DNA from: Bdellovibrionales bacterium
GTDB lineage: Bacteria; Bdellovibrionota; FAC87; UBA2466; JACKAF01
Length of the DNA stretch: 39,018 bases
NCBI GenBank assembly: GCA_020435295.1
Contig: JAGQZV010000007.1
Location: forward strand, 1-39,018
Direction of reading: 5' to 3'
In this document: positions 8,363 to 11,694 of the stretch, one piece after another
Numbering within the stretch: the stretch's first letter is position 1
Layout of the letters: every line of letters starts with the position of its first letter
Notes under the pieces: generated by a model
Databases searched by the model: none
The model's input: only the letters and a program-made list of their open reading frames with translations
Told to the model about the DNA's origin: nothing
Program-made: the position numbers and the translations under genes

Positions 8363-8404
8363 ATGGGCAAGGTCCAGCCCCCTGGATCTTGCCCATTTTT
8401 TTTT
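8363..8404 (+). terminator. Rho-independent terminator
   Basis: Stem ATGGGCAAG / CTTGCCCAT (8363-8371 and 8388-8396) has an inner stem TCCAG / CTGGA around CCCC, followed directly by a run of nine T (8396-8404). It ends transcription of the PQ/G-rich protein gene. Confidence 0.9.
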
Positions 8405-8631: not shown

Positions 8632-10191
8632 ATGATCAGGCACTTAAAATACCGAGCTTCGTGCGGAGCGCTCGCACTCAGCATCGCCCTTGGCGGCTGC
8701 ACGGTCCAGTTGGATGAGTGTGCGGGCCCGGCTCTAAACTTCGCTCAACTTCAGGCGCTGCGGGAAACTGCTCAGTTTGCCTCTGGGCCACAAGCGAACC
8801 TGATCGTTCCCAATCCGCTCGATGTGACCAATTCTCTAAACGCGTATTCCAGCAGCCCTGGATTGTTGAGTTTCACTAGCCTGTACAACCTGACTGGTTT
8901 ATCGAGCAGCAACTACCTTCAAAACAGTTTCATCCACATTCGTCGCACCGACACCTCGGAGGCCGCAACCAACTTTGGCGGGGACTTCGAAAGGGACGTC
9001 GATACCGTCGAGTACTCTGAGATGATGGCGTACTACGCCACAAGCTCAGTGATTAACTACGTCGACGCCCTCGGTTTCCAGATGGTACGCAGCCGCCCCC
9101 TATACGTACTGGTACGCTCGCCTGAGTATTATGATGGGGAGATCAACGCCTTTTATGAACACAACTACCTAAATCCTAGCGAGCCACGCATTATTCGTTT
9201 GATCGGAGCGTCCGAATTCGCTCCGTCGGTGGACTTCGACATGTACTCCCACGAAACCGGACACGGAATCAACGAAAGCGCAAGTTTCCAAGTCGGGTTC
9301 GATCTCGCGGGGGATTACGGCGCCATTTTCACCGAAGGATCGGCTTTGCATGAATGTCTTGCCGACTATTTGGCGGAGTCATTCGGAAATAAGGACTACA
9401 TTGGCCGCTGGATCGCACGCAACTTCTCCGACATTCCAGACGGCGAGCCCTTGCGATCGGCTGTCGATGATCCCCGTGACCCTTTCGACTTTGCAACCGT
9501 CGCTCTCAACGATGGCAAGGCATACTCCAATCCCGAACGCTACACAGTTGCAGAGGGCTGCACGCGTGTCCTCTGGGAACTGAGACAGCAACTTGTCGGA
9601 GACAGTTCAGAGTTAGGAAGTATCTTCTCCGATCGACTAGTTTACAGTGCCGTGGGCATGCTCAACCAAGACACCTCCATGCGGGAGTTTTATAGTTCCC
9701 TTGTGCAGGCTGACAAAGAACTCTACTGCGGGTTGCACCAACGCTCAATTGAACAAGCATTTACCGCGCGCGGCTTTGACCCCAATCCACCGCGCCTAGG
9801 ACAACCTCTCCAGGTTCAGCACGCACCCTTTGGGCTTACATTCGTCGATAACAACGGTTCGGTGGAACCACAGGTCGTGCCCGTTGGGCCGAATGTGATC
9901 GTGGCGTTTCAATTTTTCATTCGCAATAACAGTAACCAAGTTGCCCGAAACGTCCGAGTCGCCGCAAGCTCCACAGATCCAAACTGGATCCAGGATCGAT
10001 ACATGCAGGGGCTAGGGGATCTTGCCCCGGGTCAATCGATCACCGTAGGTATCAGCCAAGGCCTACCCGCTTTGGACTATTCCGTTTCCGGTATCATCGA
10101 TCAGCGATCCCCGGGCGTAGGCATGAAATACTATTTCCAAGTTTTTGCAGACAATGCCGATCCGGTGGTCCAACCGGGGGTTCTTAAGTAA
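8632..10191 (+). CDS. Lipoprotein gluzincin metallopeptidase (thermolysin/fungalysin-like), lacking its own propeptide
   Basis: A 519-residue exported protein. The ATG at 8632 gives a lipoprotein signal peptide ending LSIALGGC (Cys23); a TTG at 8590 would add 14 unneeded residues. The zinc motif HETGH is at 207-211, and Glu241 in EGSALHECLADYLAES is the likely third ligand, the arrangement of M4/M36 gluzincins. GCTRVLWELR resembles the M36 region that normally follows the catalytic His, but a Tyr-Thr stands where that His is expected. Residues about 400-519 form a CARDB-like beta domain (PVGPNVIVAFQFFIRNN, LGDLAPGQSITVGI). No FTP propeptide precedes the catalytic domain. An FTP protein is instead encoded by the next gene, which starts on this gene's stop (TAATG). 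Expected site: outer membrane, periplasmic or surface face. Confidence 0.8.
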   Translation: MIRHLKYRASCGALALSIALGGCTVQLDECAGPALNFAQLQALRETAQFASGPQANLIVPNPLDVTNSLNAYSSSPGLLSFTSLYNLTGLSSSNYLQNSFIHIRRTDTSEAATNFGGDFERDVDTVEYSEMMAYYATSSVINYVDALGFQMVRSRPLYVLVRSPEYYDGEINAFYEHNYLNPSEPRIIRLIGASEFAPSVDFDMYSHETGHGINESASFQVGFDLAGDYGAIFTEGSALHECLADYLAESFGNKDYIGRWIARNFSDIPDGEPLRSAVDDPRDPFDFATVALNDGKAYSNPERYTVAEGCTRVLWELRQQLVGDSSELGSIFSDRLVYSAVGMLNQDTSMREFYSSLVQADKELYCGLHQRSIEQAFTARGFDPNPPRLGQPLQVQHAPFGLTFVDNNGSVEPQVVPVGPNVIVAFQFFIRNNSNQVARNVRVAASSTDPNWIQDRYMQGLGDLAPGQSITVGISQGLPALDYSVSGIIDQRSPGVGMKYYFQVFADNADPVVQPGVLK

Positions 10192-10904
10192 TGAAACCCT
10201 ACCGCTACCTCGTCATCAGTTTGAGCACTTTAGCATTTCTGTATTATATTTCGCACGAAAACAACAAGATGCCGGAGCTACGGGCCCGGCGCGATCTTGC
10301 GTCTACCGCAGTGGAAGTTCCGGTGCCCACCAACCAAAGGCCGGTTGACGAATGGGTGCGCCCCGTGGGTGCGACCGCTCTGGAGCTAGCCGAAGATTTC
10401 CTGCGGAAGAACAAGTCCCTCCTGAAGCTACGCGATTACCATGAATTGCGCCCCCAAATCATGCAAGCACCGCTTCGCACAACGGTACGGTATTCGGTGT
10501 ACGAAAACGGATTCCCCGTGATCGGCATGGACTTGAGCATTCAAACGGATAGATACTTGAATCTGGTCCGGGTCATTAACAACTACCGTCCCCTGAAACC
10601 TTCAGATTTTTCACAACTAGATACGATTGGTCCAGAGGCCGTGGCGGACCGCCTGCCGATTCGCTACCGGGTCGAGCGCCGCAGCTTGCAAAAAAACGAA
10701 CCCATCTTGTTTGCAACGAGTACTACCCAACAAGCGGAACTCTCGTACGTCATTGACGTAGTCGATCGCGCTCCTATGGGAAATCGCACGAACAGCCCCA
10801 AACAAATCGTAATGCGCGCGTCTGACGGGCAAGTGCTACGCACTTCCCTACCTCGTCGTGAGTTCTCCCCTAGCGCGTCGTCTACTGACCAATCTAACGA
10901 ATAG
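10191..10904 (+). CDS. Stand-alone FTP/PepSY-type propeptide protein, membrane-anchored
   Basis: This 237-residue protein has an N-terminal hydrophobic anchor (LVISLSTLAFLYYI, about 7-20). The segment at about 60-117 resembles the FTP (fungalysin/thermolysin propeptide) domain: LELAEDFLRKNKSLLKL, then TTVRYSVYENGFPVIGMDLS, matching the pattern VRY-Q---G-PV-G---. A PepSY-like part follows (about 120-215: AELSYVIDVVDRAP, then QIVMRASDGQVLRTSLP). In M4 and M36 proteases these domains sit in cis at the N-terminus and act as folding chaperone and inhibitor. Here they form a separate product translated by TAATG coupling immediately after the protease. Its likely role is a trans-acting chaperone or inhibitor of that protease. 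The family call rests on pattern recognition, not a profile search. Confidence 0.7.
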   Translation: MKPYRYLVISLSTLAFLYYISHENNKMPELRARRDLASTAVEVPVPTNQRPVDEWVRPVGATALELAEDFLRKNKSLLKLRDYHELRPQIMQAPLRTTVRYSVYENGFPVIGMDLSIQTDRYLNLVRVINNYRPLKPSDFSQLDTIGPEAVADRLPIRYRVERRSLQKNEPILFATSTTQQAELSYVIDVVDRAPMGNRTNSPKQIVMRASDGQVLRTSLPRREFSPSASSTDQSNE

Positions 10905-11694
10905 CGATGGCGTCCGTTGGGATTTGTCGCTTGGGTGTATTTTTGTCGGTAAAAACTCGAACCTGAACTCCCTCTTTGTCGAGGCGTTGCTCGGGCACTC
11001 CACGCTTTTTCTGCCAGTCCAAATCTGTGCGGCAAACATACGCCCGGTTGAACTCAGACAACTGAGTTACTTCAAACACACACGGCTTCATCCAACTTCC
11101 CTTGCGCACCATTTGTATCTCAAAAGTAAAGCCATCTTTTACGACATACTTCCAAGGCAGTTCTAGCGTACGTTTGATTTCCTGAACTTGACCATTGCCA
11201 ATCGGCCAATACTGACCGTTTCCGGGAAGCTCCATTTCCAAGCGGGCTGCTTCTGCATCCGCCGGATCTTTGGGAAATTTCACTTCCAATTTCACATTTG
11301 AAATGGGTTGCGCCTGAGGATCTTCCCCATTGTTTTCAATTTCATACCGCTGAATTTCGATAAAAGTCCGGTACGGCTCGACGCTAACCGACTCGACATT
11401 TGATTCAGGATCGGCGTTTGGTTCCCGATGTTCTCCGGTGAACTCGCGATCCACCATAATGGGAACGTTCAAAATATCATCTTGGTCTAGCAAATCATCT
11501 TGGCGTTTCACCATCAGATATCTGGTTTTTTCGATTTTTGGGGCTGGGTTGGGACGCGTAATCGGTGGCAAAGCCATTGGACCAATGTTTAGCTGGGGCA
11601 CCATGGGGGCTTTTCTACGCGCGCAACCCATATACGCCAGACTCATCATCACCAAAGACGCAACCAGTAACTTTTTTCCCGATACATTCCGCAT
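10894..11694 (-). CDS. Lipoprotein of unknown function
   Basis: A 266-residue protein with a lipoprotein signal peptide (MRNVSGKKLLVASLVMMSLA, lipobox AYMGC, Cys24) followed by a Pro-rich linker (MALPPITRPNPAPKIEK). The rest is acidic and beta-rich, with a central stretch DGFTFEIQMVRKGSWMKPCVF and a C-terminus ending IPTDAIAIR. Two cysteines (PCVFEV, YVCRTD) could form a disulfide. GGAG lies about 7 bases before the ATG. Its 3' end overlaps the FTP gene by 11 nt on the opposite strand, so the genes are convergent. A perfect inverted repeat at 11735-11751 lies just upstream of the start. I do not recognise a family. Confidence 0.8.
   Translation of the reverse strand: MRNVSGKKLLVASLVMMSLAYMGCARRKAPMVPQLNIGPMALPPITRPNPAPKIEKTRYLMVKRQDDLLDQDDILNVPIMVDREFTGEHREPNADPESNVESVSVEPYRTFIEIQRYEIENNGEDPQAQPISNVKLEVKFPKDPADAEAARLEMELPGNGQYWPIGNGQVQEIKRTLELPWKYVVKDGFTFEIQMVRKGSWMKPCVFEVTQLSEFNRAYVCRTDLDWQKKRGVPEQRLDKEGVQVRVFTDKNTPKRQIPTDAIAIR

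Follow-up and report, generated by a model that had tools for sequence, protein, structure and literature searches.

In the textbook view, proteases of the thermolysin and fungalysin types have propeptides that are single-use folding helpers within the same chain as the enzyme. The locus described here raises the question of whether such a propeptide can be encoded as a separate protein, acting in trans on a protease that has none of its own. It lies in the window, which is the whole stretch of 39,018 nucleotides that was analysed (contig JAGQZV010000007.1 of a Bdellovibrionales bacterium), where two genes, ORF1 and ORF2, are directly coupled. The original prediction held that ORF1 is a lipoprotein protease with a gluzincin site and no FTP propeptide, that ORF2 is a membrane-anchored protein with FTP- and PepSY-like segments, and that the second acts on the first in trans. 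The coordinates given for both reading frames and for the TAATG that joins them were right (Table 1). The two-gene split between protease and propeptide appears to be new to the literature: no NCBIfam model describes these pairs, and a search of the open literature covering M4/M36 propeptides that are split or act in trans, steric chaperones and the proteases of Bdellovibrio did not find the arrangement. Subscription journals were outside the scope of this search, and a paper in one of them could describe part of it.

Table 1. Positions of the features of the ORF1–ORF2 locus, numbered from the first nucleotide of the window.
Feature	Position	Strand	Remarks
Terminator-like hairpin	8363..8396	+	15 pairs, T-run; separates the ORF1–ORF2 pair from the upstream gene
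ORF1	8632..10191	+	ATG at 8632; 519-aa lipoprotein, M36/M4-like gluzincin metalloprotease without propeptide
Lipobox Cys23	8698..8700	+	LGGC followed by T; Cys invariant in 13/13 homologues
HETGH zinc site, His207–His211	9250..9264	+	H, E, G and H invariant in the family alignment
Glu241, third zinc ligand (ExxxD)	9352..9354	+	Asp245 invariant
Tyr304	9541..9543	+	Invariant; sister split proteases (IHN) have the thermolysin His231-equivalent His at this position
C-terminal all-beta domain of ORF1	9799..10188	+	AlphaFold strands 394–518
TAATG stop/start overlap	10189..10193	+	ORF1 stop TAA 10189–10191; ORF2 ATG 10191
ORF2	10191..10904	+	237-aa membrane-anchored FTP+PepSY protein (putative trans propeptide); stop ends at 10904
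Membrane-anchor helix of ORF2, residues 4–24	10200..10262	+	AlphaFold helix; hydrophobic segment
FTP-like domain of ORF2, residues 61–136	10371..10598	+	Profile and AlphaFold
PepSY-like domain of ORF2, residues 141–222	10611..10856	+	Profile and AlphaFold; conserved R-x-E-F end follows

Preceded by a strong hairpin and followed by a convergent gene, the two genes appear to form a bicistronic unit of their own. Terminator-like structures are not in excess in the window (3, compared with 2.9 in shuffles), and the stem upstream of ORF1 is by far the strongest of them, which suggests that it marks the pair as its own transcription unit. The overlap between ORF1 and ORF2 is 1 nt in the window and 4 nt (ATGA or GTGA) in homologues. 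The convergent neighbour (10894–11694, minus strand) encodes a protein with the sequence KPYRTF; it also adjoins the pair in several relatives, and a Pfam search with it returned no match.

ORF1 combines the HExxH motif with a downstream Glu as the third ligand, as M36/M4 gluzincins do, and this combination is invariant in 13/13 family members. In the alignment of these sequences (n=13), His207, Glu208, Gly210, His211, Glu241 and Asp245 do not vary, and Glu241 sits within EGSALHECLADY. The predicted zinc site is thus borne out, as is the lipoprotein assignment, the LGGC lipobox having the same Cys23 in all 13 sequences. Pfam M36 matches every one of the 13 members (best 1.9e-6), and the window protein alone reaches 13.2 bits, which is under the curated cut-off of 23.3. 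In searches of the PDB, the ORF1 profile retrieves the M36 structures 7qfy and 4k90. The AlphaFold model of ORF1 is weak (pLDDT 67); when this model was used in Foldseek, the M36 proteases 7qfy and 7qp3 were the top two matches and aureolysin the third, with a probability of 1.00. Judged by profile and model, the nearest family of ORF1 is M36. The absence of an FTP domain from the protease also held up, as Pfam found none in any ORF1 homologue. In addition, the span from Cys23 to HExxH is only ~180 residues, which fits an N-terminal catalytic subdomain and leaves no room for a propeptide too. The transition-state His (thermolysin His231) is not present in the ORF1 family, where Tyr304 is aligned at that position; since Tyr304 stands in for the catalytic His, the activity of ORF1 could be altered.

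Single-sequence searches with ORF2 gave no match in Pfam or NCBIfam and nothing useful from phmmer against the PDB, and for this reason the protein was compared as a family profile (n=14 sequences). Within this family, Pfam FTP or PepSY is matched by one of the 14 members (E 0.023). The profile aligns with the propeptides of single-chain M36-like proteases of the phylum (alignment A5, the N-terminal 210 residues of FTP-PepSY-M36 proteases) at an hhalign probability of 96.8% and an E of 2.7e-10. The 149 columns of this alignment span FTP as well as PepSY, and controls with an unrelated neighbouring gene family gave 0.5%, 0.3% and 0.25%. By sequence, the profile has three matches in the PDB, one of which is 3nqy_A (E 0.55). 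The AlphaFold model (pLDDT 82, with 140 residues >90 and most of both domains >90) places an N-terminal helix (4–24) first, then a low-confidence linker, the FTP-like domain (63–130 in the model) and the PepSY-like domain (141–219 in the model). Against 350,542 PDB chains, the top three matches of the model were all propeptide chains with this two-domain fold, each at a probability of 1.00: 3nqy_A and 3nqz_A, the propeptide of vibriolysin MCP-02, and 4k90_B, that of the Aspergillus fungalysin. Given the profile match to cis propeptides and the fold matches to propeptide chains, ORF2 is an FTP+PepSY propeptide without its protease. Pfam does not show FTP or PepSY in the single protein; the claim is supported by the family profile, the fold and related partners that do match Pfam FTP and PepSY. 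Consistent with the membrane anchor that had been proposed, a helix is predicted over the hydrophobic segment, and the A-X-A cleavage motif is missing after this segment in the window ORF2 and in most partners (22 of 35). Because of the missing motif, the N-terminus points to an uncleaved anchor.

Conservation of the pair was followed through 59 relatives. Of the 15 genomes of the order, 14 have an ORF1 homologue, that of the window included, and the full-length matches are 37–47% identical; the fifteenth genome is 73% complete. An ORF2 homologue directly follows ORF1 in 14/14 of the ORF1-carrying genomes of the order, and with the adjacency kept to this extent it is more than chance. A contig search with the single ORF1 sequence returned nothing, and one with the ORF1 alignment returned 11 records, which are MAGs labelled Bdellovibrionales, Bdellovibrionaceae, Bdellovibrio, Deltaproteobacteria or similar. 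No plasmid in a search for ORF2 carries it.

Profile searches covering 291 genomes of the phylum showed that related pairs are present in ~67 genomes of Bdellovibrionota. Family f8 (ten genomes) has a protease of ~640 residues (HELQH, NEAISD) and a partner of 264–291 residues at -4 to +19 nt. The f8 partners match Pfam FTP (best 6.5e-5) and PepSY (5.5e-5), and their profile retrieves 3nqy_A first (E 0.081) and 4k90_B third from the PDB; hhalign relates them to the window partners (96.8%) and to cis propeptides (97.0%). Families f17, f24 and f27 (one genome each) also have the protease gene first. The order is reversed in the two genomes of f28 (L104 1543–3802, L105 2205–4595), where the FTP gene, whose products match Pfam FTP above the cut-off (1.2e-8 and 1.5e-8), is followed 124–126 nt later by the protease. 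The inverted order, protease before propeptide, that had been pointed out thus describes the window correctly and is not general, f28 having the propeptide first and still as a separate gene. From this, it is the split and the anchor that are essential, and gene order is not. One further match, a transmembrane segment beside a subtilisin (L074), was dismissed as low-complexity.

The largest family, f9 (L096–L101, L108–L147), has an adjoining partner at 38 of ~40 readable loci; at one exception the partner lies ~0.5 kb downstream and at the other there is none. Its proteases, of ~800 residues, are followed, often via TAATG, by an anchored protein of 150–220 residues that has lost FTP and keeps only a PepSY-like end (VDSETGKVxxTWDRT). 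Among the proteases, hhalign links the window, f8 and f9 types (98.8% and 98.5%). The ties of the f9 partner are weak, at 66.7% over 24 columns with f8 and 6% with the window family, and because of this its membership among trans propeptides is tentative. If it belongs there, f9 displays an apparent stepwise reduction of the propeptide, in which FTP was lost and the PepSY-like part kept. Separately, at L096–L101 a large gene (540–900 residues) lies 13–57 nt upstream of the f9 protease and possibly shares its operon.

M4/M36 catalytic domains generally need a propeptide to fold. As ORF1 has none and an anchored propeptide homologue is made alongside it, a steric foldase acting in trans is the simplest reading. 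We think it probable that ORF2 is the separately encoded, inner-membrane-anchored FTP+PepSY propeptide of the lipoprotein ORF1, serving as a tethered foldase and also as a blocker of the active site. Since the gluzincin of the pair lacks a propeptide and the FTP+PepSY protein has an anchor of its own, with the two genes coupled and conserved together, any folding or inhibition must act in trans; to this extent the predicted trans action stands, and the steps beyond it are what we infer. Both proteins would be exported by Sec, with ORF2 staying in the inner membrane and facing the periplasm. Here, the FTP and PepSY domains of ORF2 would act as a template on which ORF1 folds, and the C-terminal tail of ORF2 would lie in or near the active site, in the way that a cis propeptide does with its cut end, keeping ORF1 inactive. 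Release would occur without proteolysis when ORF1, as a lipoprotein, moves on (the outer membrane being its probable destination), and ORF2 would then be free for another round. By analogy with the sorting rules of E. coli, the absence of Asp at +2 from the lipoprotein ORF1 would allow it to move to the outer membrane, with ORF2 remaining behind. That ORF2 is made after the protease does not speak against this, as lipase foldases are likewise encoded after their lipases.

The geometry of the tail is best seen in f8, where 10/10 partners end exactly 11 residues past the PepSY Gly. In the MCP-02 propeptide chain 3nqy_A, the aligned residue, as read from the alignment, is Gly169 of 180, which is likewise 11 before the end. 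From this correspondence, the end of the f8 trans propeptide would roughly coincide with the cleavage point of a cis propeptide. The window family has its conserved R-x-E-F end 12 residues past the PepSY Gly, where three members stop. The window ORF2 continues ~12 residues beyond R-x-E-F, and the f8 geometry is therefore not exactly transferable to it.

The closest known relatives are the M4/M36 preproproteases (vibriolysin MCP-02, fungalysin Mep; 3nqy, 3nqz, 4k90), which share the FTP+PepSY fold and an M36/M4-like catalytic domain with HExxH...E. In the window, by contrast, the propeptide is a separate, membrane-anchored protein encoded by the second gene and the protease is a lipoprotein; cis cleavage would not be needed and the family has Tyr for the catalytic His. 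In layout, the pair resembles the lipase foldases (Lif/LipH–LipA), with an inner-membrane anchor, a gene that adjoins and follows that of the client, a variable linker and a dedicated, Sec-exported client. The folds are nonetheless unrelated: the folding domain of Lif is helical and ORF2 is beta-rich FTP/PepSY, Lif is absent among the matches listed for the ORF2 model in the PDB fold search, and the client in the window is a protease. It is by analogy with these proteins that ORF2 may act as a foldase. Emfourin, a soluble inhibitor that is not known to be a propeptide homologue, is likewise a protein partner encoded in the operon of a thermolysin-family protease, the protealysin of Serratia, but it has no anchor and protealysin has its own cis propeptide. 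SUB1-ProM of Plasmodium is a free-standing relative of subtilisin propeptides that adjoins protease genes and inhibits in trans; here, the proteases are of a serine family and SUB1 keeps its own propeptide, so that SUB1-ProM is no replacement for it. Lipase foldases are membrane-anchored steric chaperones (PMC7046727), and several folding cycles have been proposed for LipH (PMC13381987). In Bacillus spores, the PepSY protein YpeB shares an operon with SleB, which it both stabilises and inhibits in trans (PMC6660665), although SleB is a cortex-lytic enzyme rather than a metalloprotease and the N-terminal domain of YpeB is different.

The main rival to a tethered foldase is that ORF1 folds alone and that ORF2 is purely a reversible inhibitor, shielding the inner membrane, on the periplasmic side, from the enzyme. 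The membrane anchor would put ORF2 where this protection is needed, the loss of FTP from f9 partners could mean that a folding role was lost, and the f8 tail has the length of that of a separated propeptide chain. There are precedents both for an inhibitor gene adjoining an M4 protease (emfourin, PMC9505478) and for a stand-alone, propeptide-like inhibitor of a subtilase (PMC6993865). We regard this as less likely, as it leaves a catalytic domain of a type that generally depends on a propeptide to fold without one, and as ORF2 in the order of the window retains both domains and strict coupling. It is less likely still that ORF1 is inactive as a protease and that the pair is a structural or signalling lipoprotein–receptor complex derived from a protease and its propeptide. 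The invariant Tyr304 at the position of the catalytic His would agree with this; however, HExxH, Glu241 and Asp245 are invariant down to 35–40% identity, which is unusual for a dead enzyme, and in other metallopeptidases, such as the astacins, stabilisation of the transition state can come from a Tyr. Finally, PepSY proteins can regulate hydrolases that are not proteases (YpeB–SleB, PMC6660665), but it is scarcely credible that ORF2 regulates some other envelope enzyme and is merely operonic with ORF1, given that the pair is present in 14/14 ORF1-carrying genomes of the order, that related pairs in several families have different neighbours and in f28 the reversed order, and that ORF2 is homologous to propeptides of this same protease type.

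The two-gene version is natural and conserved, and it allows asking directly whether a propeptide works catalytically and can be reused, whether its folding and inhibiting roles are separable (the f9 partners have lost FTP), and by what means a protease becomes active when it does not cleave itself. It is also a widespread, unannotated envelope protease module in a phylum that includes predatory bacteria. More tentatively, M36-like proteases across much of this phylum may have replaced the sacrificial cis propeptide with a tethered, multi-turnover one. Activation would then come from leaving the inner membrane as a lipoprotein rather than from cutting, making activity location-gated, with stepwise reduction to a PepSY-like protein in the largest family. 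In a tree of the catalytic domains, every split family with several members forms a clade; the hypothesis that the split arose only once is neither favoured nor rejected by it (AU p 0.08). The genome of the window also encodes a single-chain FTP-PepSY-M36-like protease (L001, G000:C243), such that cis and trans forms coexist in it.
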